Assembly: GCA_026707745.1 (NCBI GenBank)
Contig: JAPOWG010000019.1
Location: forward strand, 27,464 to 91,463
Direction: 5' to 3'
Length of the DNA: 64,000 bases
Source: Chloroflexota bacterium
GTDB lineage: Bacteria > Chloroflexota > Anaerolineae > Aggregatilineales > Phototrophicaceae
In this document: positions 25,120 to 64,000 of the stretch, piece after piece
How positions within the stretch are numbered: position 1 is the stretch's first letter
How the letters are laid out: the number at the start of each line of letters is the position of its first letter
The notes under the pieces: model-generated
Told to the model about the DNA's origin: nothing
Database searches by the model: none
What the model saw: the letters and a program-made list of their open reading frames with translations, nothing else
Position numbers and translations under genes: made by a program

Positions 25120-26436
25120 ATGCTACGATTACTGAGCGCTTGCGGATTGATAATTGCGTTTTCAATCGTTGTGGTATTGGGCGCGACCGCGTACATATTC
25201 TACTCCAGCGCTCCCGACAAGCGTTCAGAGACTATTGTGTCTATGATTACCGCTATTGAAACTCGGCTGGGTGAAATCAAAAACAGCCTTGAAGCTCAGC
25301 GCGAGGCAAAAACACGGATCAGCACTGAAACACCGATTCCACCCAGCGCAATGCCACCGTCTGCCCAGATTTTTGCAACGTCAACAGCCATAAGACCGAC
25401 AGATACGTCGATTCCGCCGACATTCACACCCGTTCCGTCAAGCGATACGCCGATTCCACCGACAGCGACCGCTATCCCATCTTCGTCGACTCCCGTACCA
25501 ACGACCGACACGCACATCCCGTCAACTGTGACGCCAGCACCTCGAACTGCAACATCAGTCCCGGCAACGAAGACGCCGGTACCGCCATCAGCCACGCCGA
25601 TTACCCCTACAGAAACCAGAATCCCACCTACAGCTACCTCGATTCCTACTGCCACGAAGCCCTATTCAATAACAATGTTTTCCTCTCCGTTGAAGAAATA
25701 CGTGCGCGGCATAGTGAATCTGCGGCGAGGACCCGGCACGTCATATGACAAGATTGGTTCGGTAAATGCGGGTACACATATAGACGTAATTGGGCAAAGC
25801 GGGGATTGGTACGTTCTAATGCATAACCATACGGAAGCCTTTATCGCGGGTTGGCTGACATATGAAATACCAACGTCGACGCCTACACAGATGCCGACTG
25901 CCACACGTGTCCCGCCGACCGCAACTTCAATTCCACCGACGGCGCCCGCTTACAGCGTCAACCTCTACTCGTCGCCTCGAACTCGCTACACGCATGGGGC
26001 TGTGAATCTACGAAAGGGCCCCGGCACTTCATATGAGTTGATAGGATCAGTAGCTGTTAATACAGCCTTGCAGGTCGTCGGCAAGAGCGGCGACTGGTAT
26101 CTGATTCGTCATAAGGGCAGAGAGGTCTTTATCGCCGGTTGGCTTACACACAGCTCGCAACTTGTGCAACCAAGTGGGCAACAGACCACTAGAAGTTCAT
26201 CGCAGCCCGCGGTCAGCCAGCCGTCAGCAGCCGCACAGGCCCCGGCACAGCAAGCACAGCAACCGGCGCAGCCACAGTCACCGGCTCAACCGGCATTCTC
26301 ATGCAATTGCAGCAAGACTTGCAGCGCAATGTCCTCTTGTCAGGAAGCATACTTTCAGCTCAACAATTGCGGCTGCCGGCGACGCGACAATGACGGCGAT
26401 GGCGTTCCCTGCGAAACTATCTGCCCGGGTGGATAG
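25120..26436 (+). CDS. secreted protein: Thr/Pro-rich linker, two SH3b domains, C-terminal Excalibur calcium-binding domain
   Basis: N-term TM; ~110 aa TP-rich repeats; VNLRRGPGTSYDKIGSV...AFIAGWLTY and VNLRKGPGTSYELIGSV...VFIAGWLTH; DNDGDGVPCETIC at C-term. Confidence 0.85.
   Translation: MLRLLSACGLIIAFSIVVVLGATAYIFYSSAPDKRSETIVSMITAIETRLGEIKNSLEAQREAKTRISTETPIPPSAMPPSAQIFATSTAIRPTDTSIPPTFTPVPSSDTPIPPTATAIPSSSTPVPTTDTHIPSTVTPAPRTATSVPATKTPVPPSATPITPTETRIPPTATSIPTATKPYSITMFSSPLKKYVRGIVNLRRGPGTSYDKIGSVNAGTHIDVIGQSGDWYVLMHNHTEAFIAGWLTYEIPTSTPTQMPTATRVPPTATSIPPTAPAYSVNLYSSPRTRYTHGAVNLRKGPGTSYELIGSVAVNTALQVVGKSGDWYLIRHKGREVFIAGWLTHSSQLVQPSGQQTTRSSSQPAVSQPSAAAQAPAQQAQQPAQPQSPAQPAFSCNCSKTCSAMSSCQEAYFQLNNCGCRRRDNDGDGVPCETICPGG
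25330..25660 (+). repeat. Degenerate repeat encoding PIPPT.TP.P-like motifs
   Basis: Recurrent IPPT/VPPS/TATS units in the translated linker. Confidence 0.8.
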
Positions 26437-49827: not shown

Positions 49828-50700
49828 TTAGAGCAGCAAATCTTTCAAATTCACGCCGGGCGTCACCATGGGCTCGATATTGCCGCCGGCCGAGGTCATG
49901 ATCAGGGTGATGCCGGGCCCATAACCCGCGCGCGGACTGTCGCCCTGCGCGATCACGCCGATGCCGACCGCATCCCGCAGATAGCCGTGATTCCAACTGC
50001 TGTCGTAATCCGTCAAGGACACGACATCGCCCAGCCGCAGTTGATCCAGGCCCGCCTCCTTGACCGCGTCGCTGTCGGCGGTCTGAATGTGGATCGAGCC
50101 GCCATCGCTGACCAAGCCGGCGCCGGCGCCCAGCAAATGCGGCGGCACCTGCGCCACAACCGGCACCGAGAGCTTGCCCTCCGCGTTGGTCGTTACTTCA
50201 AGGGCATCGACCAATTCCGGCGAGCAGCCCTTGAGCATGATATCGGCATGGTCATCGAACTTGAGTCCCACGCCCTTGGCTTTGATGACGATCTTGTCGC
50301 CGATGGCCAGCTGCTCGCGCACCTCCGGATCGAAGTGAATGATGACATGCTCGGAGAAACGTCCCGTCTTGCCGGTGACCATGCCGCGCGCCCGCTGCGC
50401 GTTGCCAGTCATGACAATGGCGGTATTGCCCACGCAGGACAGGACGTTAAGCCCGCGATTGCCGGTGGCGTCATTGAGCATCACGCTGACGCCGGGATGA
50501 ACGCAATCCGCCAGCCAGCCATAAGCCGAATCGCCGATGGAAACGTTGTAGACGATGCTGCCATACGCCGGCAAAAGAAAGGGCGTGCCATCGGCCGCCA
50601 GGGAGTAGGGCATGGCCGGCAAGGGCGGCATGCGCGGCGGCGTGATCACGCCTTGTACGGATACACTGACAACTTGCTGGGCATTGTTTTTCGCGCTCAT
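49828..50700 (-). CDS. DUF4438-like protein
   Basis: FLLPAYGSIVYNVSIGDSAYGWLADCVHPGVSVMLND; paralogous to the next gene. Confidence 0.7.
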   Translation of the reverse strand: MSAKNNAQQVVSVSVQGVITPPRMPPLPAMPYSLAADGTPFLLPAYGSIVYNVSIGDSAYGWLADCVHPGVSVMLNDATGNRGLNVLSCVGNTAIVMTGNAQRARGMVTGKTGRFSEHVIIHFDPEVREQLAIGDKIVIKAKGVGLKFDDHADIMLKGCSPELVDALEVTTNAEGKLSVPVVAQVPPHLLGAGAGLVSDGGSIHIQTADSDAVKEAGLDQLRLGDVVSLTDYDSSWNHGYLRDAVGIGVIAQGDSPRAGYGPGITLIMTSAGGNIEPMVTPGVNLKDLLL

Positions 50701-51557
50701 GATACCTTCCGAATGTTCAAGTAGTTGGCAATATTTGCGTCCGGGTCAATCACCCACTCGATGCAGGGTTCGTCGCATGTCATCAGGGTCAGGATGCCGG
50801 GTCCGTGCCCGGTCATGATCGAATCGCCGTGAATGCACAAGCCGATGGTGACGGCGCCGGGTTTATAACCGCGCCCAAAGCGATGATCGGCATGGTTCAC
50901 CACCACCAGGTCGCCCAGCCGCATCTGATCAATGCCGAGCTCGGCCATCAGCGCGCGATCGCCGGACATCAAGTCCTGGTCGACGAAGTCCGGATTCAAC
51001 TCGGCGCCGGAACCCATGATCCGAATCGGCAATTCCATCGTCACCGGCACACGGATCCTGCGCTCGTCAAGCGCTTCAATGGGCAGACTATCGAACAGCC
51101 GCGGGCTGCATTTCTTGAGCGTGATATGCGGGTAATCGACCAGTTGCAAACCCTGTCCCTTGGCGCGGATCTGCACCGCGTCGCCGACGCCGATCAGTTC
51201 GGCGGCTTCCGGCGGGAAGTCCACCAGCAAACGCGCATGCTCCCCGGTGACGATGCCCTCTGTTCCTTGCGCCAGGCCGCTCATGACAAACGCCTGGTTG
51301 CCCATGCAGGTCAGGTAGTGCATGGCATAGTCGGCATCAAGATCGGGATGGGCGATTGAAGCCCCAGGCTCCAGATGATCCGCCGCCCATCCAAAGGCCT
51401 CATCACCGACCCGCGCGTTGTAAATCATGCCAGACATGCCAGGCAAGATCGTGGCTTCGCCGCTGGCATGGGGTATATAACCCCGGACTGTCGGCTGGCT
51501 CACATAGCCGACCACGGCCATTTCCACCAATTGGTCGGCGTTCGTCGCTAATCCCAT
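50697..51557 (-). CDS. DUF4438-like protein (paralog)
   Basis: TILPGMSGMIYNARVGDEAFGWAADHLEPGASIAHPD; GHGPGILTLMTCDEPCIEWVIDPDANIANYL; ATGA overlap. Confidence 0.7.
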   Translation of the reverse strand: MGLATNADQLVEMAVVGYVSQPTVRGYIPHASGEATILPGMSGMIYNARVGDEAFGWAADHLEPGASIAHPDLDADYAMHYLTCMGNQAFVMSGLAQGTEGIVTGEHARLLVDFPPEAAELIGVGDAVQIRAKGQGLQLVDYPHITLKKCSPRLFDSLPIEALDERRIRVPVTMELPIRIMGSGAELNPDFVDQDLMSGDRALMAELGIDQMRLGDLVVVNHADHRFGRGYKPGAVTIGLCIHGDSIMTGHGPGILTLMTCDEPCIEWVIDPDANIANYLNIRKVS

Positions 51558-51814
51558 GAATAATCCCTTCTCGGCCGATCCCTGCGCGCAGGCACTTGCT
51601 GCCGCACGGGGCGCCCAATGCGCATGGCCGCGCCCATATATTGTCGACAATCTGAAATCATCGAGAATGTAACATATCGAGCAGCAAAATACAAACAAAG
51701 CAGCGCAGCCCGGTTCTGTATCGAATTCGGTTGAAATTGAAACAATTCATTTCACTACAAACGCGCAAAAAACACGGAGAGCAATAATACTGTAAGATTA
51801 TTCTCGGTGCTGCC

Positions 51815-52064: not shown

Positions 52065-52754
52065 ATGGAACCGATTCAGACCTTGCCGCTGCGAGAGCGT
52101 GTCATCAATACGCTTCGTGATGCGATCGTGAATGGCGAGTTAGTGCCGGGGCAGGCTTTGGTCGGCACAGAACTGGCCAACCAGATCGGCGTAAGCCAGG
52201 CGACCTTGCGCGACGCCATCTATGCGCTCAGCCTCGAAGGCTTGGTCGAGACGGTGGCATATCACGTATCAACGGTCAAAACGCTCTCGAAAAAAGACAT
52301 CGAGGATCTGTTCAGCGTCCGCAGCATGCTGGAAAGCTATGCGATACGGCAGATCGTGGCGACCGACCAGGCAGCCGCCGCCGTGAGCGAACTCTATGCG
52401 ATCTGCGATGAGATGGAGGACGCGGCCGAACAAGACAGCCTGACGGATCTCAACCGGATCGACCGCATGTTTCACGATACCTTGATCGACTTCAGCGGCA
52501 ATCAACTGCTGCGCGTCTTGTGGAATAGCGTGGCGCAGCGCGTTCAGCAAGTGCTGTCGCTAAGCAACCAGCAGCAAGGGAACCTGCGGCAAATCGTCCT
52601 CAATCATCGCGAGATCGCGCAGGTAATCGAGAACGGAGATGCCGAAGCCGCTGTCGGCCTAATGAATACGCATATCAGCTTCGTCGCGGACGAGATCTGC
52701 GGCAACTGGCATCAAATTGCGCTGGGAACAAACGGCGGACAACAGAGACAATAG
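52065..52754 (+). CDS. GntR-family regulator (FadR/FCD subfamily)
   Basis: LRERVINTLRDAIVNGELVPGQALVGTELANQIGVSQATLRDAIYALSLEGLVE winged helix; FCD-like C-term. Confidence 0.92.
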   Translation: MEPIQTLPLRERVINTLRDAIVNGELVPGQALVGTELANQIGVSQATLRDAIYALSLEGLVETVAYHVSTVKTLSKKDIEDLFSVRSMLESYAIRQIVATDQAAAAVSELYAICDEMEDAAEQDSLTDLNRIDRMFHDTLIDFSGNQLLRVLWNSVAQRVQQVLSLSNQQQGNLRQIVLNHREIAQVIENGDAEAAVGLMNTHISFVADEICGNWHQIALGTNGGQQRQ

Positions 52755-52769: not shown

Positions 52770-53762
52770 ATGGCAAATGCAGTCGAAACGCACAGGGTAT
52801 TGGTTGCCGATGCAGGATATAAGGCGGCAATTACGGACCTTTCAGGCGAGTTTCCAAACTTGGACATACTTGGCGCCAGCGACGCCGCCGACGCAGCCGC
52901 GCTGGCGAGTGACAAAATAGTCGGCCTGATCGCCGATACAGCGCCGATAGACGAAAATCTGCTGGGCAAGATGAGCAATCTGCGCGCGGTATTGAAGCTG
53001 GGCCGCAGTTACTTCAATATCGATGTCGATGCCCTGCGCCGGCGCGGAACCCATTTTGGCTGCGTCCCGCGCAAGGGTCCGAACTGTGTGGCGGAACTGG
53101 CGCTGACGCTGATCATGGCATTGAGCAAGGACTTGATCGTCGGCAACGAGGCCGTGGCAGTGGGCGCTTATCGCTACCGCGGCATCAAACCCGAGTTAAC
53201 CTCGCAGCGCAAGATCGCTTTCCATTGGATGAAAAACGAACGCGTTCACGAGGTCACGGGCAAGACGCTCGGCATCATCGGCATGGGCGAGATCGGCTGT
53301 GAACTGGCGCGCCGCGCCAGCGTCATGGGCATGCGAAATATCTACTACAAGCGCAAGCCGCTTTCGGCCGAACTGGAAGGGATTTTTGACGCGGGCTATC
53401 GTGATCTCGATGACCTGCTGCGCGAGAGCGATTACGTCTGTGTGGCGACGCCGCATACGGCCGAGACCGAGGGAATGATCGGCGCGGGGCAGATTGCGTT
53501 GATGAAAGAAAGCGCCTATCTGGTCAATATCGCGCGCGGCGGCATCATTGACGAAGACGCGATGATCGCGGCCCTGTCCGAGAATCGCATCGCCGGCGCC
53601 GGTCTTGATGTCTTTGCCTACGAGCCCTTGCCGCCAGAAAGTCCGCTCTGCGCGCTGGACAACGTGATCCTCTGCCCGCATATCGGCGGCGGCACGGGCA
53701 CGAATCGGGTTATCGAGTTGGGCGCCGCCTTGCAAGAGATGAACCGGATTCTGACAGGCTAG
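52770..53762 (+). CDS. D-2-hydroxyacid dehydrogenase (phosphoglycerate dehydrogenase-like)
   Basis: GKTLGIIGMGEIGCELARRASVMGM; ATPHTAETEGMIGAGQIALMKESAYLVNIARGGIIDEDAM. Confidence 0.92.
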   Translation: MANAVETHRVLVADAGYKAAITDLSGEFPNLDILGASDAADAAALASDKIVGLIADTAPIDENLLGKMSNLRAVLKLGRSYFNIDVDALRRRGTHFGCVPRKGPNCVAELALTLIMALSKDLIVGNEAVAVGAYRYRGIKPELTSQRKIAFHWMKNERVHEVTGKTLGIIGMGEIGCELARRASVMGMRNIYYKRKPLSAELEGIFDAGYRDLDDLLRESDYVCVATPHTAETEGMIGAGQIALMKESAYLVNIARGGIIDEDAMIAALSENRIAGAGLDVFAYEPLPPESPLCALDNVILCPHIGGGTGTNRVIELGAALQEMNRILTG

Positions 53763-53768
53763 GCAAGG

Positions 53769-54830
53769 CTAAGGCTTCGGCCGATCCAAGCTGGTCAAAA
53801 ATCCGGCGATGAAAGCCGTCTCTCCGTTCTCCAGACGGATTTCGTACCAGCCGCCTGAATCATCTATGACCGTGATCGCCTGCCCGCGATCGGCAGTACC
53901 GACGATGTCGCAGTTGGTGGAACCGCAGGAGCGGATATTGACGTAGCTGGAAGCAGTGATGTAGTAGGTTTTGCTTGTGACTTCCCCGCTTTCTAGTAAC
54001 TCCCCCGATGCCATCTCATCGCCCGCGGCTGTGGCTGCGAATTGGTTTATCCATGCGGTCAGGTGCTCGGCGTCGCTGTTTACACTCTCATAAAACGGGT
54101 TTGCCGCCTTATCTACGCCGGCAGTTCTCAGCGCATACATTGCTGGTGTATCAGCGGTCATTTGAATAATGCGCAAGGCGAATTCCTGGGCTTCCACACA
54201 ACTTGGCAAGAGTGGCAAAGTCGCCAGACGCCACTCTAGCAGTTGCTCGATATACGCAAGCAGGTCCGCGCCGATTTCCAGATCCGCGTGGCTGGCGTGC
54301 AAGTCTCGAAAGGCTGCGGCGATGTCCTGCAGCGAAGTCAATTGCGCGCTTGAGCACTTCGGCGCGCGGCGATCGATCGGTAGCTGAAGCAGTCTCTCGT
54401 CCGCGTCCTCATTGACGATGCGGAAGTTTTCTGCCTGCAATTCATTGAGGCGAGCCACTTGGTCATTGATATATTCGGGGTATGGATTAAGCGACGCGCT
54501 TAGTCCAAGCGATCTCAGCGCCGTTAGCCCAACAGAGTCGCCAAGGATTTGACTCATCAACAAGCTGCTTTGGACATTCTCCTCGCAGGATAAGAGGCTT
54601 GGCAGAATATCGCTGCGCAAAGTCGGCAATCCGTCCAGATTCTCAAGCAGCGCATTGATTGTTTGCGAGGAATCAATAGCAAGGTACACATCTTGAAAAT
54701 GGGGAATTGTTGATTCCAGCGTATGACGCAATTGAGCGGAAGAACAAGGCGGGAAGCCCTCGTCCCGCGCTTGCGACAGGGGCAAACAAGATAGCATGGC
54801 AAGGAGGGTGAGTAGAAGGATTCCGCGCAT
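53769..54830 (-). CDS. exported Cys-repeat/SH3b protein A (2 repeats)
   Basis: Signal peptide MRGILLLTLLAMLSCLPLSQA; repeats begin FPPCSSAQL and APKCSSAQL; C-term TYYITASSYVNIRSCGSTNCDIVGTADRGQAITVIDDSGGWYEIRLENGETAFIAGFLTS. Confidence 0.85.
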   Translation of the reverse strand: MRGILLLTLLAMLSCLPLSQARDEGFPPCSSAQLRHTLESTIPHFQDVYLAIDSSQTINALLENLDGLPTLRSDILPSLLSCEENVQSSLLMSQILGDSVGLTALRSLGLSASLNPYPEYINDQVARLNELQAENFRIVNEDADERLLQLPIDRRAPKCSSAQLTSLQDIAAAFRDLHASHADLEIGADLLAYIEQLLEWRLATLPLLPSCVEAQEFALRIIQMTADTPAMYALRTAGVDKAANPFYESVNSDAEHLTAWINQFAATAAGDEMASGELLESGEVTSKTYYITASSYVNIRSCGSTNCDIVGTADRGQAITVIDDSGGWYEIRLENGETAFIAGFLTSLDRPKP

Positions 54831-54913
54831 GACGACCCCTTTCAATCTATATCCACGTGTCTATAACGGCCGCAACTGCCCGGAATGCGAGAGAAGCGTC
54901 TAAAGCGCCAAAC

Positions 54914-55972
54914 TCACGGGTTCGGCGGGTTCTCGCTCATCAAGAAGCCGGCGATAAAAGCTGTCTCGCCGTTCTCCAACCGAATCTCGTACCAGTCCTT
55001 GGAGTCATCGATTACCGTCAGCGCCTCGCCGTCTTCGGCGGTGGCGACAATAGCGCAGTTCGTCGAAGCGCAAGAGCGGATATTGGCGTAGGGATTAGCG
55101 GTGACATAGTAGGTCTTTGCCGCGTTTCCCGTATCTTCAGCAAAATCCTTCATAATGGTCCGATCCAAAAACGTCAGCCAAGTTCCCAAGGCCCTGAGCA
55201 TATACGGGTTATCATTCGTGTCTATACCGGACAAACTCAACGCAAATGCAATGGCGAAGTCACTGGCAATCGCGCCCATTAGCACGCCAAGTTGAACGGA
55301 TTCACGACAAGGCGGCAAGCTGGCCCATATCCCTTCTCGCCAATTGACATGCGCTTCGCCATACTCGATTAAATCGCCGCTTGTTTGAATCTTCAAGGCA
55401 GGTCCGACCAATAAATCCTCGAAATCCCAAGCGATATCATCCAGAGATACCAGTTCGGAGACGGTACACGCCTCCAAGTTGCCGTCATCCGTTCCTAGAG
55501 GCTCGCTCCATCCTTCTCTGTGGACATAGGCGTAAATCTCGTCAAAACGCGTCGATCCACGCTCAGCCTGTCCCTGATAGAGATTCGCATCAGGCGATAT
55601 GCCGACGACTTGCAAAGCCTGCCCCACCGCAAAGTCGCCAGAAACCTGGCTCACGAACCAACTGACCTCGACGGCTTCCGCGCAATGCGGTACCATTGAC
55701 CAGATACGCTGATTGATCTCCTCGTCGGCAAAAGCGAGCAAATCATCTATCGATTCCAGTTCCGAGGCGCGGCTTATAACGGAGTCATGTGCTAATACAA
55801 GGCGGATAGTGAGCAGCGACGCCTGAAAAACAGAACAGGCGGGCAAATCGCTGCCATAGACCCGCATGACTGCGATGCCTTCGCTAGTTTCCGCCGACTT
55901 GTCGTCTTGTCCCTGCGATACTGGCGCCATGTTTATCAGGACAAGTAGACATAACAATAGGGGACTTCGCAT
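54914..55972 (-). CDS. exported Cys-repeat/SH3b protein B (2 repeats)
   Basis: Signal peptide MRSPLLLCLLVLINMAPVSQG; repeats begin LPACSVFQA and LEACTVSEL; C-term SH3b ANIRSCASTNCAIVATAEDGEALTVIDDSKDWYEIRLENGETAFIAGFLMS. Confidence 0.85.
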   Translation of the reverse strand: MRSPLLLCLLVLINMAPVSQGQDDKSAETSEGIAVMRVYGSDLPACSVFQASLLTIRLVLAHDSVISRASELESIDDLLAFADEEINQRIWSMVPHCAEAVEVSWFVSQVSGDFAVGQALQVVGISPDANLYQGQAERGSTRFDEIYAYVHREGWSEPLGTDDGNLEACTVSELVSLDDIAWDFEDLLVGPALKIQTSGDLIEYGEAHVNWREGIWASLPPCRESVQLGVLMGAIASDFAIAFALSLSGIDTNDNPYMLRALGTWLTFLDRTIMKDFAEDTGNAAKTYYVTANPYANIRSCASTNCAIVATAEDGEALTVIDDSKDWYEIRLENGETAFIAGFLMSENPPNP

Positions 55973-56150
55973 TCTATTGATCTCCCGCCAACTCCATGTC
56001 CTTGTCTTTTGCTCCGCACACAGATACGTGGCGCTCCGCCTTGGCAACGGATGCGTCAAGCCCTGAACCGCGGGATGACATCAATCGCTACCAGCATACG
56101 AGCACTCACAGTGTGTGATCAAGATTCCTTGATAGCCCCCGACCACTATG

Positions 56151-57932
56151 TTACGGCTTGGTCTTGCTCATCAAGAAACCGGCGATGAACGCCGTCTCGC
56201 CATTCTCCAACCGAATCTCATACCAGTCCTTGCTGTCATCAATGACAGTCAGCGCCTCGCCGTTTTGGGCGCTGCCGACAATAGCGCAGTTCGTCGAGGC
56301 GCAGGAGCGGATATTGGCGTAGGGATTGGCGGTGACGTAGTAAGTTTTGGCCTTTTCCACTGAATCGGATAACTCGAGCAATTCGTCGCGGCGCGCGAAA
56401 AACCAGTCCATATCTTCACGAATCTGTTCGAGGTAAGGGATGTCCTCGGCGGCCGCACCGGCATTATCCATCGCGTACATTGTGACAAAGTCGCTGACGA
56501 CGTCGCGGATCACCAAGCCCACTTCCAAAGCTTCGGCACAGCGCGGAATCTCCGCTTTGAGCGCGTCACGGAACATGATCAGTCGGTTTACCAGATCAAG
56601 AAAGTCGATTCTCGTTTGAACCGACATCGCCACATCTGTGAATTCGCGGAAATCGGGTTCGACGATCGCATAAAGATGCAGGATGTCTGCATCGGTGCAG
56701 GTCGGCGGGTCTGTTTCGGATTCGGCGTCCGATTCTTTCCATTCTCCAGATTTGATCCATTGCGTGATTTGCTCATCCGCAGCGGCATGCTCGGTCAAGG
56801 CGTTGATATTGAGTTCCGTAAACGGGATCGCTTTGCGCGGCATATCGTCGAATCGCATCGCGAACCAGGTGACAAGGTCACTCAGTTCTTGCGAAAGCAA
56901 CCAGACATAGTCAAAATTCTCCGCGCAGAGCTTGACAAGGGGCAGCACGGTTTCACGGATGTCGAGCGAGAGCCGGCTGTAAGTGAGCAGATCATCCATG
57001 TTCTCAACGGTCTGCATTGTGTCGAGCAATTCATGGTAAGACTCGGCTACACGGGCCCAAGCCTGGACTTGATCGTCAATTGTACAGGCGGGCAACTCAC
57101 CGGATCGTCCTACTGCAAGCACGCGCGACAAGGACTCCGATGAGACCAATTCTTGCTCCGCAGCAGGCAGTTCGTCCGCCAGGTCAATGAGGCTTTGGGT
57201 ATGCTGCGCCATAGGCCTGCCAAAGGGATTGGCGCCTTCCGGGACGCCCGCGAATGTAAGGGCTTGCAGCGCGGACAAATCGCTTGTCAATTTCGCAACC
57301 AGCAGGCTGATCTCGATGGCGTCGGCGCAGTCTTGCAAGCGGGCCAGAGCATCGTCCAGCCATTGCAATTGCCTGTCGATGGATGCGAGAATCTTGTTCC
57401 GGTCTTCAATGCCAAGTGAAACAGCCTCAAGCGCCTGCAACTCGAAGACAATGTCTGACAGTTCGTCCGCTGACTGCCGCGGGCAGGGCGGGGGCTCGCG
57501 CTCCGGCGCCGTCGTGAGGTTTGGATCAATACTCATCGCAGTCACTACCAGTTCCTGCAAGCGTTCTTGATAGCTAGGCACGATGCGCAAGAAAGGATTC
57601 TCGCTTTCCGGCATGCCGTCCAGTTCCAGCGCAGTCCGCCCGACCAATTCGCCGATCAGTCGAATCACCGACAAGTGAACCCTGTGCGCCTCCCAACAAG
57701 AGGGCAATCGCGCTAGTTCATTGTCGCGCCAATACAACTGCTCCACGGCGAATCCGATCAGTTCGTCCATGGTCGTGATGGAAGCGCCGCTGGCCAGCTG
57801 AAATTTGATGACGAGATCAAGTATCGGCTTCAAGTCCTCATTATCGCAGGCGGGGAGGCCCGATGGTTGGCTCTGTATGACGCCGGTGAAGAAGAGCAGG
57901 GACAGTAACGAGATGAATAGCCTTTGGGTCAT
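56151..57932 (-). CDS. exported Cys-repeat/SH3b protein C (4 repeats)
   Basis: Start MTQRLFISLLSLLFF with GGAGGT RBS; four LPxC-type repeats; C-term SH3b. Confidence 0.85.
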   Translation of the reverse strand: MTQRLFISLLSLLFFTGVIQSQPSGLPACDNEDLKPILDLVIKFQLASGASITTMDELIGFAVEQLYWRDNELARLPSCWEAHRVHLSVIRLIGELVGRTALELDGMPESENPFLRIVPSYQERLQELVVTAMSIDPNLTTAPEREPPPCPRQSADELSDIVFELQALEAVSLGIEDRNKILASIDRQLQWLDDALARLQDCADAIEISLLVAKLTSDLSALQALTFAGVPEGANPFGRPMAQHTQSLIDLADELPAAEQELVSSESLSRVLAVGRSGELPACTIDDQVQAWARVAESYHELLDTMQTVENMDDLLTYSRLSLDIRETVLPLVKLCAENFDYVWLLSQELSDLVTWFAMRFDDMPRKAIPFTELNINALTEHAAADEQITQWIKSGEWKESDAESETDPPTCTDADILHLYAIVEPDFREFTDVAMSVQTRIDFLDLVNRLIMFRDALKAEIPRCAEALEVGLVIRDVVSDFVTMYAMDNAGAAAEDIPYLEQIREDMDWFFARRDELLELSDSVEKAKTYYVTANPYANIRSCASTNCAIVGSAQNGEALTVIDDSKDWYEIRLENGETAFIAGFLMSKTKP

Positions 57933-58076
57933 GTGATGACCTCCATTTATCGTCGCTCTCCGCGCAGTCTGTCTCATAATCGTCTCCCTTGGAAACCGAC
58001 AGCGCAAAACTGCGAGCAGCTTTACGATAGGCTCCAAGGCTGTTGCCTATCAAATTATTTCGAATACAGTCATTCG

Positions 58077-59846
58077 CTAATTGCCCGGACGATCCTTGCT
58101 GGCGAGGAACCCGGCGATGAACGCGGTTTCACCATTCTCCAGGCGGATCTCATACCAGTCTGCGGAGTCATCAATGACCGTGATCGCCTCTCCGCGTTTG
58201 GCGCTGCCGACAATCCTGCAATTGGTGGAAGCGCAAGAGCGGATATTAGCCGCCGGATTCGCCGTGACATAATAGGTCTTAGTCTCGGTCGGCTCGCTTT
58301 CCAGCAGATCAGCCAGGATCGTCCGGTCCAAAAGGCGGGTCCAAGCCCCGAGCGCCTGCAACATGTAGGGATTGTTGTCGGTGTCGACACCCGCGACCTT
58401 CAATGCGAATGCCGTCGCAAAGTCCGTAGCGATGACGTTCATCAACAGGCCCTCGACCAGTGCGTCCTCACAACCGGGTAACTCTCGCCAGATGCCGTCG
58501 CGCCACTCGATATGGATCTCGCTGTAGCGAATCAAATCCGCCAGCGATTCAATCTTGAGGGCGGCGCCGACCAGCTCGGTCTGGAAGTCCGCATTGATGT
58601 TTTCCAACTGCGCCGCCTGCCTGGCGTCGCACACCGACACTTCGCCAGCTTCCGACGCGAGGCCGTCCGCCCAGTCTGGTTGATCCAGCAGAGATTCCAA
58701 GGCCTCGTTCTCATCCAGACCCAGCAAGGCCCGCTCCCGATAAACATTGTCAGCCGCTTCCAATCCGGCGAGCTGAAAGGCAGCGGCGGCGGAGAGATCC
58801 CCAGCCAATTGGCTCATGAACCAGCCGATTTCTAGGGCCTCAGCGCATTGCGCCAGCCGCTTCCAAAGGTCGGCCCGCCAGCTTATCTGCGCGCTGCCAA
58901 ACGTCTGGAGCGCCTCCAACGTGTCCGACGACTGTGCTTTCTCGAGAATGGTCCGGAAGTCTCCATCGCCAATTGGAAAATAGGCCTGAACCAGCGAACA
59001 TCCCGGGAAGTTGCTGCCGTAGGGTCGCAAGCCGGGAGCAACTCCCTGCACAGGGAGATTTGTCGCCAGCCACTGCTCGACCAGACCGCCGCCATTAGCG
59101 ACCGGCTGGACGAAAGGATTGGCATCATTCGAGATACCGGCCGCCTGCAAGGCGAAAAATCCGCCGGTATCGACGTTGAGCAGCAGCATGTGCACGACCC
59201 ATTTGAGCGCTTCTGCACATTCCGGCATATTCGCCAGCGCCTTCACGCGCCAATCCAACTGTTTCTCAATATAAGGCGGCAAGTCACCGGCGATTTCAAT
59301 CGTCTGTCGCTCCTCGTGCACAGCCTGGAATTCCCTTGCCAGGTCCAACAGCGCGGCGACTTCGTCTTGCTTGCAAATCGGCAGATCGTCCGGCTGCGAC
59401 GGCGACAGGTCATTGCGTTCGCCGCTTTCAATCAAGTCCGACACCTCATCTATGAACACGCTGAATGCTTCAATGTCTGCTACCGAGTGCGTGGCGTAAT
59501 GGTTGCGATCCCGAGGAAATCTGGCGAAATACAAGCCTAAAGCCGACACGGTGTCCGCCCCCATTTGGCTCATCAATAGGCCAAGTCTGATGTTCTCAAC
59601 ACAAGTCAGCAGCGACGGCAGTATGTCTCTTCGCCACTGCAAATACGTCTCGCCAACCTGCGCCAACTCCGCAGTTTCCATTTCGAGGCTGACTGTCTCG
59701 AGCAAATCCAGGAAGTCCGGGACGACCGTGTAACGAGAATAGGTCAATTCTGCCCAGGAACAAGCTGGGAACCCAGCCTCTTGCGCGCGGGAATACGGTA
59801 CGATGATGAAGATCAAAAACAGGATGGTCAACAGCTTCGCGCGCAT
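58077..59846 (-). CDS. exported Cys-repeat/SH3b protein D (4 repeats)
   Basis: Signal peptide MRAKLLTILFLIFIIVPYSRAQ; repeats begin FPACSWAEL, LPICKQDEV, FPGCSLVQA, VSVCDARQA; C-term SH3b. Confidence 0.85.
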   Translation of the reverse strand: MRAKLLTILFLIFIIVPYSRAQEAGFPACSWAELTYSRYTVVPDFLDLLETVSLEMETAELAQVGETYLQWRRDILPSLLTCVENIRLGLLMSQMGADTVSALGLYFARFPRDRNHYATHSVADIEAFSVFIDEVSDLIESGERNDLSPSQPDDLPICKQDEVAALLDLAREFQAVHEERQTIEIAGDLPPYIEKQLDWRVKALANMPECAEALKWVVHMLLLNVDTGGFFALQAAGISNDANPFVQPVANGGGLVEQWLATNLPVQGVAPGLRPYGSNFPGCSLVQAYFPIGDGDFRTILEKAQSSDTLEALQTFGSAQISWRADLWKRLAQCAEALEIGWFMSQLAGDLSAAAAFQLAGLEAADNVYRERALLGLDENEALESLLDQPDWADGLASEAGEVSVCDARQAAQLENINADFQTELVGAALKIESLADLIRYSEIHIEWRDGIWRELPGCEDALVEGLLMNVIATDFATAFALKVAGVDTDNNPYMLQALGAWTRLLDRTILADLLESEPTETKTYYVTANPAANIRSCASTNCRIVGSAKRGEAITVIDDSADWYEIRLENGETAFIAGFLASKDRPGN

Positions 59847-59962
59847 GACGAGTCCTCCCAACTATGGCAACATCCAGCAGTTCCTATTTTCCTTGGGCAA
59901 CTGAGCGCTTTGACCAACTGTGTTCAAATGTCCGTTCCTTGGCGGTTCGCGACGGTAAATGA

Positions 59963-61756
59963 CTATCCACCTGGCCGAACGCTGCTGGTCAGGAAGCCCG
60001 CGATGAACGCCGGCTCTCCGTCTGCCGTCCAGATCTGATACCATGATCCGGTATCATCGCTGATGATGAGTTCGGACCCATATTTGGCGCTGCCCACGAT
60101 GCTGCATTCTGTGGAACCGCAGGAGCGGATATTGGCGTAGGGATTGGCGGTGACGTAGTAAATCGGGTAGGTGCGAAGACTGCCTTGCTTCAACGCGGTG
60201 ATGTAGGGCAGCTTCATGATAGACGCCCAATTTCGGATCGCTTGCGTCCGGTAGGGATTGTCATCGCCCAATTCGCCGGATGCGTCCAATCCTATCGCGA
60301 CGGCGAAATCGCTAGCGACCGCGTTCATCGTCACTACGAGCTGCATCCCCTCGATACAGTTGGGCAATGCCGACCAGACGCGCTCGCGCCACTCCAGATG
60401 GGCTTCGCTATAGCGGCGCAGATCGCTTTCCGTTTCGATGTGAAAGGCGATTTCCATCAAGTTGTTTTGAAAGTCAATCACGACTTCGTCCACCGTTTGC
60501 AGTTCATCGTCGCTGCAATCCAGCACTTCCGTGGATTCGTCGGCCAAAATCTCCAGCGGGATTGATTCGAATAACATATCGCCTACGTTGCCCAGGTTCA
60601 TCGCACCCTGGAGCTTCGCATCCGAATAGAGATTGTCCTTGAGGATACGTCCGTGCTTATAAGCGCGGGAGGCCGCGAAGTCCGCAGATAGCTGGTTCAG
60701 CCACCAGCCAATCTCCATCGTCTCGGCGCACAATGCCATACGCGACCAGGTCGAGTCTCGAAACTCGTTCTGCGGTTTGCGAAACTCGAGCAAGTCCTCA
60801 ACCGTGTCCAATTCCGTCGCTTGCAGAAGAAACTCAATGTGCGGCAAAATGTGGTCTGCAAACGATTGGAACTGAGCGACCGAGCAAGTCGGGAAGTTGC
60901 TGCCGTAGATCGGCAGGGACAAGGCGGCGCTCTCTAAATCTTCGGCAATCAGCTTATCGAGCAGGCTCGTCAGGCGCTCGGCGCCTTGCGCGACTTGCCC
61001 GATCGCGATGTTCGATGTCTCTTCCACTTTCGCAAGACGAAAAGCATGCAAGGCGAAGGTATCGGCTATCAAACTGTGGATCGACACTTCAATGTCAATC
61101 GCCTCGGCGCAAACAGGTTGCTGCAACAAGTTTTGACGCCGCCACAACACGACTTCTTCAATGTAATCGAGTACCTCGCTTCGTCCCTCAAGTTCTTCGT
61201 GGCTAGCGTGCAGCGCCTGGAAGCCCGAAATCAAATCCATGAGAGACTCTCGCGCTGCCCCGGTACAAGCGGGCAATCCGTGACTCGAGGAATACGGGAA
61301 ACTCGCCCGATCACCTCCATCGATCATGTCATACAGCCCGTCCTGAAGCTCGTTAAAGCGCGGCACATCTACATGGAACGCTTTTTCCAGGGGATCAAAC
61401 AGCCTGCCGACGCCGGATCTTTGCAGCGCCTTCGACGAAAGCAAATCGCCTGTCAGTTCGCTCATGCGCAGGACATATTCATAGTTTTCGGCGCAGGTCA
61501 GCATTTTGGGCAGCGCCCCGCCGCGCCAATTCACCAGTTTCTGATAATTCTCCAGCAGATCATCAACGGACCGCGCGCTGTCGATCGCGTCATAAAGTGA
61601 AAAGAAGCGATCCGCGGTTCCGTACATGGTGTTGCGGAGGTTCCCGTCCGAACAAGCCGGCAAGCCGCTTTCCTGGGCGAGGGACAGCCCAGCAAGCAAG
61701 AGCGCCGCCACAAGCAAGAGCAACTGTTTTGCGGACAAGACAAGACTTCCAAACAC
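59963..61756 (-). CDS. exported Cys-repeat/SH3b protein E (4 repeats)
   Basis: Likely GTG start at 61756 with GGAGGG RBS; hydrophobic KQLLLLVAALLLAGLSLAQ; four repeats; C-term SH3b. Confidence 0.83.
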   Translation of the reverse strand: MFGSLVLSAKQLLLLVAALLLAGLSLAQESGLPACSDGNLRNTMYGTADRFFSLYDAIDSARSVDDLLENYQKLVNWRGGALPKMLTCAENYEYVLRMSELTGDLLSSKALQRSGVGRLFDPLEKAFHVDVPRFNELQDGLYDMIDGGDRASFPYSSSHGLPACTGAARESLMDLISGFQALHASHEELEGRSEVLDYIEEVVLWRRQNLLQQPVCAEAIDIEVSIHSLIADTFALHAFRLAKVEETSNIAIGQVAQGAERLTSLLDKLIAEDLESAALSLPIYGSNFPTCSVAQFQSFADHILPHIEFLLQATELDTVEDLLEFRKPQNEFRDSTWSRMALCAETMEIGWWLNQLSADFAASRAYKHGRILKDNLYSDAKLQGAMNLGNVGDMLFESIPLEILADESTEVLDCSDDELQTVDEVVIDFQNNLMEIAFHIETESDLRRYSEAHLEWRERVWSALPNCIEGMQLVVTMNAVASDFAVAIGLDASGELGDDNPYRTQAIRNWASIMKLPYITALKQGSLRTYPIYYVTANPYANIRSCGSTECSIVGSAKYGSELIISDDTGSWYQIWTADGEPAFIAGFLTSSVRPGG

Positions 61757-61885
61757 CGGTACTACCCTCCCCACCTGAGTCCAGGTCTCAGTTTTGCAGA
61801 TTTGTCGGCGCCATGATACAGCCTGCAGGGCAACAGTCTCCCACAAAAGGCATCACATGCCTCACCAGAATAGCAGCCTTGCGCG

Positions 61886-63667
61886 CTAATTGCCGGGTGG
61901 ATCCTTGCTCATCAAGAAGCCGGCGATAAAAGCGGATTCACCGTCCTCCAGTCGAACCTCGTACCAGTCTTTGGTATCGTCAATGACCGTCAGCGCCTCG
62001 CCATTTTGCGCCGTCGCCACGATGTCGCAGCTTGTGGAAGCGCAAGAGCGGATATTGGCGTATGTGTTGGCCGTTACGTAGTATGTTTTGCCGCCCGGCA
62101 CGGCATTGCCGGCCTCCTCCGCTCGCGCCAGCAGCGATTGTCTCATTTCAGTTATCAATCGCATATCGCGCCGCAATTCCAACACATAGGGATTACGCTC
62201 CAGCGGTGGTTCCGATGCCTCCACAGACATCAGCGCCACCCAGTCAGCCGCGATCTGCCGCATGAGCATGCCGATCTCCAGCACCTGCTGGCAGCGCGGC
62301 AGTTCTCGCCAGATCCGGTCGCGAAAAGCAAAAGACTGATCAAACAGCTTGAACAGGTCGGCGAAGGTTTCCAGGCTATATGCCGCGTCAAGGAAGGATC
62401 GATAATCGGGCAAGAGATAGCCAACGACAAAAATCACTTCGTCGTCCGAACAAACAGCGAGTTCTCTTGCATCCGCCCCAGGTCCCGACGTGCGTTCAAT
62501 ACCCGCCAGGTATTCTTCTGTTGTTTTCAGCCAACTTTCGATGCTCTCGAATGTCTCAGCGGCCTGCGAGGAAATCGGGTTCCGCGCGCCCCCATAACCA
62601 TACATATCCAGCGCGAAGCGCGATATGATGTCGCCGAGAATCTGCCGCGACAGCCAGGCGATCTCAAAGATCTCTTGACACAGCGGCAGCCGCGCCAGCG
62701 CGCCGTCGCGCAAGCTGATATGCGCATCGCTGTACGCGATCAAATCCGCCTGCGTGTCAACAACCTGCGCGCTCATTGCGACATCCATCACCTGACCAAT
62801 GACCACGCCATGCGCCGCCGCGATCTCCGCCGAACTGCAGGCCGGCAGCTCGCTGCCCCGGCCCAGGGTGAGTATCTTGGCGCCCTCGTACTCCGGCCGC
62901 GTGAGCCGGAGCCCATCGCGCCAGCTCCCCAAGCTGCGCAGCGCCTCTGCGACGGACGCGGCATACGGGTTGTCTTCCTCCGCAATACCGGCGTAATTGA
63001 AGGCGTACAAAGTTGCCGAATCAGTCGCGAGCGAGTTCAAGAGGAAACCAAGCTCGATGGCTTGCGCGCATTGGGGCAGCTGCAGCATTTTGTCTTCGCG
63101 CCATGCCAGCATAGTATCCAGCGAATCGATCCATCCTTCCCGGTCTTGCCCCACGGCCGTGTTGCGCCGAGTCGACTGGAAATCCCTTACCAGTTGATCC
63201 AGTATCTGATTCTCTTCTCGCGAGCAAAGCGCGACCCCGACAGCGTCCGGGGATCCTTCCTCTTCGCTATCCCCGCCCATCAGACCCACTGAGAGCTCTG
63301 CCAGCCGTCTCTCATCGATCCGGCGATGTATGACATAGGGGTTTGCATCGTCGCTAAGGCCCGCAAACCGGAGCGCATTGTATCCAACGAGATCGCCCTC
63401 GAGCATGAATTTCTGCCTCTGCGTGCCAATCGCTGCGGCGCAAAGTGGCAAGAGCGCGAATTTCGACTCCCGCCTGTCCAGTTGCGATCGCCCTTTTTCA
63501 ATCAAATCGTCAAGCGTCTCGCCCCGAGCGCTATCCATATCCAACAAAGAAGTCATCATCATGAGGATTTCAGTCTGGCTGCACTTGGGGAATTCGCTAG
63601 ATTGTCCAGTTACCGCTGGCGCAAGAATTAACGAGAGCAAAAAACTGAGCAAGAAGGATTTTCGCAT
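61886..63667 (-). CDS. exported Cys-repeat/SH3b protein F (4 repeats)
   Basis: Signal peptide MRKSFLLSFLLSLILAPAVTGQ; repeats begin FPKCSQTEI, VALCSREEN, LPACSSAEI, LAVCSDDEV; C-term SH3b. Confidence 0.85.
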   Translation of the reverse strand: MRKSFLLSFLLSLILAPAVTGQSSEFPKCSQTEILMMMTSLLDMDSARGETLDDLIEKGRSQLDRRESKFALLPLCAAAIGTQRQKFMLEGDLVGYNALRFAGLSDDANPYVIHRRIDERRLAELSVGLMGGDSEEEGSPDAVGVALCSREENQILDQLVRDFQSTRRNTAVGQDREGWIDSLDTMLAWREDKMLQLPQCAQAIELGFLLNSLATDSATLYAFNYAGIAEEDNPYAASVAEALRSLGSWRDGLRLTRPEYEGAKILTLGRGSELPACSSAEIAAAHGVVIGQVMDVAMSAQVVDTQADLIAYSDAHISLRDGALARLPLCQEIFEIAWLSRQILGDIISRFALDMYGYGGARNPISSQAAETFESIESWLKTTEEYLAGIERTSGPGADARELAVCSDDEVIFVVGYLLPDYRSFLDAAYSLETFADLFKLFDQSFAFRDRIWRELPRCQQVLEIGMLMRQIAADWVALMSVEASEPPLERNPYVLELRRDMRLITEMRQSLLARAEEAGNAVPGGKTYYVTANTYANIRSCASTSCDIVATAQNGEALTVIDDTKDWYEVRLEDGESAFIAGFLMSKDPPGN

Positions 63668-64000
63668 TGTGACACCTTTCCATAAAGGCAGATTACCCAC
63701 AGTACATCATAACATAGGCAATTAACGGGTTACAAACATCTATGATAATGGACAGGGCAATTGCATCAAAATGAGACGACTGACATGCTAGGAAATTGGA
63801 CTGAGCATTAAGCACCGAGGGCCGCGAGGACACCTATTCTGAATGCGCAGGTTGCCCGTCTGCGGGGATCACGAGGCCGGCGGGTTTCGTGAAGGCGCGA
63901 GGCGCTTCCAAGATTCCCCCGCGCAGTCCCAGAAGTCAAGCTCGAGAAGTCAAAGGTTGCCGCCGCGGCAATTGCCGGGGAAAAAGTTTTTTCGGCAGTT

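Follow-up and report, generated by a model that had tools for sequence, protein, structure and literature searches.

Six consecutive genes on the minus strand of a Chloroflexota contig (A–F, positions 53769–63700, with no intervening gene) encode exported proteins that are built from an undescribed two-cysteine domain, here called the unit, and a C-terminal SH3b domain. Positions refer to the window, i.e., the entire 64,000-nucleotide stretch analyzed (contig 21, bases 27464–91463). Comparisons with related genomes indicate that gene F is the ortholog of a genus-wide core gene at one syntenic site, and that genes A–E are tandem expansion products beside it. The six products may act as wall-tethered surface-binding proteins for contact with a host or a community, which we regard as plausible if somewhat short of probable. 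A preliminary description of this DNA had reported six same-strand exported genes that combine two-cysteine units with SH3b, and this is borne out by the 20 units and by the signal sequences and SH3_3 domains present in all six.

The Two-Cysteine Unit

The unit is approximately 110–130 amino acids long. Across 187 units drawn from 24 loci of the genus, it follows the pattern LPxC...L...WR......LPxCxEA...D.....AL..AG.....NP[YF], in which the first cysteine (C1) is conserved in 179/179, the second cysteine (C2) in 186/187, the arginine of WR in 95%, and the aspartate in 87%. In A–F, the spacing between C1 and C2 is 50–53 residues in 19 of the 20 units and 47 residues in the remaining one. The features that define the family were all found, namely a spacing of about 52 residues between C1 and C2, a WR preceding LPxC, and D and NP[YF] after it. 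Held-out profiles, from which a gene's own units had been excluded, recovered all of its units (E-values of 1.9e-15 to 4.8e-32 for A–F), and the best E-value among 1200 composition-preserving shuffles against the unit profiles was 0.39. The recurrence of the unit thus exceeds chance.

Outside the leader sequences, cysteines are confined to the pairs in the units and the pair in SH3b, with exactly two per unit and two per SH3b. These exact counts and the invariance of C1 and C2 make a disulfide bond inside the unit likely. Structures were predicted with AlphaFold2 for protein B (two units and SH3b; predicted local distance difference test [pLDDT] 75.8, predicted template modeling score [pTM] 0.68) and for protein D (four units; pLDDT 78.5, pTM 0.46), from alignments that were shallow (27 and 16 rows, respectively). 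Each unit was predicted to have four helices (unit pLDDT mostly 75–92). C1 precedes the first of these and C2 lies where the third begins, and low-confidence linkers separate the unit pairs and precede SH3b. These models support the recurrent all-helical unit that had been proposed.

The building block in the evolution of these proteins is the unit pair rather than the single unit. All 49 intact proteins that were read hold two, four, six, or eight units, while one more open reading frame is a fragment. The units cluster by position in the protein in a phylogenetic tree, and the best non-orthologous match has the same odd/even position in 153 of the 187 units, although the pair and position counts are not independent because the proteins share ancestry. 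Gene A resembles the first half (units 1–2) of D/E joined to SH3b, and gene B resembles the second half (units 3–4) of D/E. The initial view of the single unit as the module therefore holds insofar as the unit recurs, and also occurs singly outside the genus, but the evolutionary block is the pair.

No match to the unit was found in Pfam, NCBIfam, PHROGs, or the PDB sequences. A unit profile compared with the sequences of solved structures gave nothing beyond brief helical alignments with designed proteins and matches with E > 0.05. Foldseek searches, which covered PDB and viral structures, found nothing at an E-value of 0.001 or better, and the top matches were SH3 or SH3-containing proteins. 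These negative results agree with the early impression that the unit lies outside known families. Pfam scans of the full proteins and of 40 single units found no match to ankyrin, TPR, Sel1, or LRR. Likenesses to AI-designed TIM barrels, RAD50, and CHAD were rejected because the matches were short, or insignificant with a low TM-score. A phage, plasmid, or viral origin was also rejected, as phages, plasmids, viral contigs, and PHROGs match SH3b alone. No publication describing the unit family was found. The two-cysteine unit is an undescribed domain family, and it would add a family that is missing from Pfam, NCBIfam, and the PDB.

Organization of the Six-Gene Array

Each of the six genes has a Shine-Dalgarno sequence and an N-terminal signal sequence at its start, and the intergenic gaps are 83–178 bases. 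Proteins A and B have two units each and proteins C–F have four each, followed by SH3_3 (PF08239) at the C-terminus with scores of 28.2–45.7 bits compared with the Pfam gathering score of 27. Gene A (53769–54845; likely start ATG 54830) has a signal peptide, units at 54411–54755 and 54024–54362, and SH3b at 53790–53978. Gene B (54914–56059; likely start ATG 55972) also has a signal peptide, with units at 55505–55846 and 55151–55477 and SH3b at 54932–55123. In gene C (56151–58037; likely start ATG 57932), the signal peptide is followed by units at 57525–57857, 57150–57491, 56754–57095, and 56367–56705 and SH3b at 56163–56354. Gene D (58077–59861; likely start ATG 59846) has the same layout, i.e., a signal peptide, units at 59427–59771, 59058–59384, 58668–59009, and 58317–58634, and SH3b at 58095–58286. 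The likely start of gene E (59963–61846) is GTG 61756, preceded by GGGGAGGG; its signal peptide precedes units at 61322–61663, 60938–61276, 60557–60895, and 60224–60520 and a divergent SH3b at 59981–60172. Gene F (61886–63700) encodes a signal peptide, units at 63263–63592, 62891–63229, 62513–62848, and 62114–62461, and SH3b at 61904–62092. Its previously assigned start at 63667 is correct, being an ATG behind a Shine-Dalgarno sequence at the signal sequence. All six genes are on the minus strand. The mature proteins have isoelectric points (pI) of 4.1–4.5, and none of the six has a C-terminal membrane anchor.

Upstream of gene F, a 92-base stretch (63661–63752, minus strand) is 87% conserved in genome G021 of the genus. 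It includes a sigma-70-like site (TTGTAA-18-TATGAT, 63735–63706), which is weak evidence by itself because consensus matches in this region do not exceed those in shuffles. The window runs to the contig end, which cuts off the view of the array's outer edge. The 247 bases at this end (63754–64000) do not resemble the flavoenzyme gene located before F in G021, and this mismatch may reflect an insertion, a rearrangement, or an assembly end.

Core Gene and Expansion Across the Genus

An examination of genome distribution and synteny, as the preliminary description had suggested, revealed a core gene at a conserved site, with the unit profile matching 31 of the 34 genomes of the genus, many of which have exactly four units. 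In most of the 20 loci read, genes for a flavin adenine dinucleotide (FAD) oxidoreductase, a RidA-like protein, and a luciferase-like flavoenzyme are followed on the same strand by the unit gene. Beyond it are a convergent 2-hydroxyacid dehydrogenase gene and, in many loci, also GntR and DUF4438 genes. Most species read have one unit gene at this core site, and the copy numbers observed are 1, 3, 4, and 6 (six genes in G021, four in G032, and three in G002). The gene of the single-gene species encodes four units and SH3b, and F is the window gene that it matches best, which identifies F as the core ortholog. Among the other loci, the sole gene at the core site of G009 is B-like, and G026 has a frame-broken B-like remnant (L097 2686–3172) beside an intact core gene. 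Genes A–E are expansion products next to F, because single-gene species keep an F-like gene at the same site and because copy number varies. Accordingly, the array is not the dedicated stand-alone system that was initially proposed, but grew from a single core gene whose site is conserved in the genus.

On the other side of the array, the window has a D-2-hydroxyacid dehydrogenase gene (52770–53762, plus strand), which is the conserved convergent neighbor of the core site, and a GntR/FCD regulator gene (52065–52754, plus strand) that belongs to the same conserved neighborhood. Two adjacent DUF4438 proteins are encoded at 49828–51698 on the minus strand; many species of the genus keep such genes close to the core site.

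Three further unit proteins are encoded outside the window, all exported and without SH3b, and the genome total is 36 units. The array of six thus stands as first described, but the family in this genome is larger. Two of the additional members are four-unit proteins encoded in tandem (L020 8431–9990 and L020 10382–11974) on contig 21 before the window, and the third is an eight-unit protein (L021 6865–10026). The region L020 8431–11974, together with L091, L092, and L093, represents a second expansion of the unit family at another conserved site, where most members lack SH3b. The neighbors at this second site are peptidase M24, HAD hydrolase, SIS-domain, and beta-hexosaminidase-like genes (all names except M24 are from sequence reading). 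The eight-unit gene adjoins a sulfatase-like gene and ABC sugar transporter-like genes.

Sequence Divergence, Selection, and Module Exchange

The core protein evolves rapidly. Between G021 and ten other species, its sequence identity is 30–35%, compared with 73–78% for the neighboring luciferase-like protein and 70–76% for the dehydrogenase. The ratio of nonsynonymous to synonymous substitution rates (dN/dS) between close orthologs is 0.22–0.39, and that of the flanking enzymes is about half (0.11–0.18). These values indicate that the array genes are under purifying but relaxed selection. Gene-wide positive (diversifying) selection was rejected based on the same values, which point to fast birth-and-death evolution as the mode of expansion. 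Of the earlier idea of diversifying, divergent paralogs, the divergence was therefore confirmed, but positive selection was not.

The last two units of the paralogs share only 18–37% identity. In G021, the SH3b of gene C is identical at every synonymous site to that of the E paralog (pS 0.00), whereas its units stay C-type, and this pattern provides direct evidence for exchange of the SH3b tail between paralogs. As judged from these comparisons, the diversity arises by duplication, module swapping, and loss, and the locus would offer an example of the shuffling of repeat pairs and SH3b tails at one fixed chromosomal site.

Relatives Outside the Genus

A narrow profile (A1) found nothing in other genera within the partial genome samples of the class and phylum. 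The strict restriction to the genus that this suggested was withdrawn, because relatives in other genera of the family were found with a wider profile (A4) and with one built from four outgroup units only (A6). The matches to A4 were weak and, on reading, were exported proteins with the same cysteine pair. Genome G820 has one-unit and two-unit exported proteins, and G805 has an exported protein with one unit, LysM, and LTD. A degenerate unit protein is present in G014, a member of the genus. Profile A6 matched G783 (6.0e-12), G824 (3.8e-5), and units of the genus down to 2.2e-7; its match in G171 was judged to be due to chance after reading. A mixed profile (A5) was swamped by units of the genus and was uninformative. 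The G824 protein (L146 1300–2394) consists of a unit, SH3b, and a C-terminal domain. Its C-terminal half, including SH3b, is 48% identical to L022 5462–6253 of the present genome, and the C-terminal part shared by the two has no Pfam name.

The relatives in G820, G805, G783, and G824 have the same two-cysteine unit and are exported, with SH3b also found in G824. However, they hold one or two units, and no tandem array was seen in the short stretches read. Taken together, these finds indicate that the unit occurs in the bacterial family as a rare module of exported proteins, present in few copies, and that one genus has enlarged it.

Possible Functions

As wall-tethered binding proteins, A–F would be secreted and remain on or near the cell envelope, where the SH3b tail probably anchors them to peptidoglycan or to some other polymer of the wall or matrix. 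Each unit would form a compact module of four helices, probably stapled by a single C1–C2 disulfide, and the unit pairs would be displayed outwards as a binding surface. On this reading, the ancestral gene, F, with its four units, was duplicated at its fixed place in the chromosome, and the copies then gained or lost unit pairs and swapped SH3b tails, with their units falling below 40% identity while each copy was under moderate purifying selection. The resulting array would be a lineage-specific repertoire whose most likely role is contact with changing outside partners, for example the matrix or cells of a sponge, or neighboring microbes.

Export, SH3b, acidic pI, paired modules, and the recurrence of wall- or glycan-binding partner domains point to envelope-tethered binding proteins. 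The relatives outside the genus are likewise exported with a carbohydrate- or wall-binding module (SH3b in G824; LysM and LTD in G805). In addition, the varying number of copies, the swapped tails, and the fast divergence suggest a partner that differs between species. Similar to the SH3_3 cell-wall-binding proteins (EntA-D/EntFM-type and NlpC/P60 partners), A–F are exported and have the C-terminal module above the cut-off, and Foldseek searches with the array proteins find bacterial SH3 structures. Unlike those proteins, A–F have no enzyme domain and consist mostly of the undescribed unit.

Sponges harbor abundant Chloroflexota (PMC6306507; PMC8163846), and the labels of two relatives (L073 and L074), both metagenome-assembled genomes of Chloroflexi, look like those of sponge bins. 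For these reasons, sponge or neighboring microbes are favored as partners, and the bacterium is probably a marine-sponge symbiont. The family resembles the "eukaryotic-like" helical repeats of sponge symbionts (ankyrin and TPR; PMC6306507) in its expansion in putative sponge-associated Chloroflexota and in its proposed role in host contact. However, the unit has four helices and an invariant cysteine pair within ~110–130 amino acids, whereas those repeats have two helices and 33–34 amino acids. More broadly, A–F could represent a new family of extracellular binding repeats, with disulfide-stapled, paired four-helix modules that a host-associated genus maintains as an expandable and shuffled repertoire for recognizing its animal host or community. 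The role would be comparable to that of other repeat-based recognition proteins and the origin independent; this more specific proposal is possible but doubtful. The array supplies a concrete gene family with which to test the ways that uncultured symbionts among the Chloroflexota make contact with hosts. Nearly all of the genus carries a core member, the module is defined, and copy number varies naturally.

Several points weigh against this explanation. The ortholog dN/dS is far below 1, and there is no arms-race signature at the gene level. The three paralogs in L020 and L021 have no SH3b, so anchoring is not required by all family members, and some SH3b domains bind ligands other than peptidoglycan. 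The sponge link is drawn from the bin labels of two relatives (COS1_bin_19 and CO36386bin_4). Finally, whereas the architecture of the proteins is shown, their disulfide bonding, wall anchoring, surface display, and ligand binding, as well as the sponge association, are inferred.

The strongest alternative is that A–F are structural or housekeeping proteins of a monoderm envelope, i.e., acidic spacers or wall cross-linkers, and that the number of gene copies is a matter of dosage or of neutral duplication instead of a binding repertoire. This is rather unlikely but deserves serious consideration, given that the unit family occurs in 31 of the 34 genomes, selection is purifying, the pI is acidic, and one gene suffices in several species. 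However, the copies diverge to 18–37% identity in the last two units rather than staying alike, their number is strongly variable, and the core gene evolves far faster than its neighbors.

It is also conceivable, although improbable, that the proteins are exported inhibitors or scavengers, with disulfide-stapled helical modules that, close to the wall, bind small ligands or the secreted enzymes of hosts or competitors (lysozyme-like enzymes or proteases). Small secreted two-cysteine helical domains are common among inhibitors, and the lysozyme inhibitor LprI (PF07007) is likewise a small exported cysteine-containing helical domain. The wall-binding partner domain would fit such a role, and one of the 40 single units matched LprI, with an E-value of 0.064 that is at chance level over the set. 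On the other hand, no significant match to LprI or another inhibitor and no fold match were found, and up to eight units per protein would be unusual for inhibitors.

Contact-dependent competition or kin recognition among bacterial cells, with the paralogs as specificity variants, is quite improbable. The polymorphic-looking array, the variable gene content, and the SH3b swapped between paralogs are consistent with it. However, no toxin domain was found in A–F, no domains of a toxin and adjacent immunity gene were found in A–F or the scanned neighbors, and no toxin, immunity, or secretion-system gene was recognized beside the arrays read; no phage or plasmid relatives were found either. Least probable, and with very little chance, is that the proteins are accessories of the adjacent flavoenzyme cluster (DAO, RidA, and luciferase-like), such as an exported substrate-binding or -releasing partner: in over a dozen species, the core gene comes after this cluster in the same orientation, but inherited linkage can explain the conserved position, the upstream stretch of F is conserved even though the sequence farther out is different in this genome, and two other expansions of the family (L020 and L021) are at unrelated sites.

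Other Features of the Window

At 25120–26436 on the plus strand, the window encodes an exported-looking, proline/threonine-rich protein that has two SH3_3 domains and an Excalibur calcium-binding domain.

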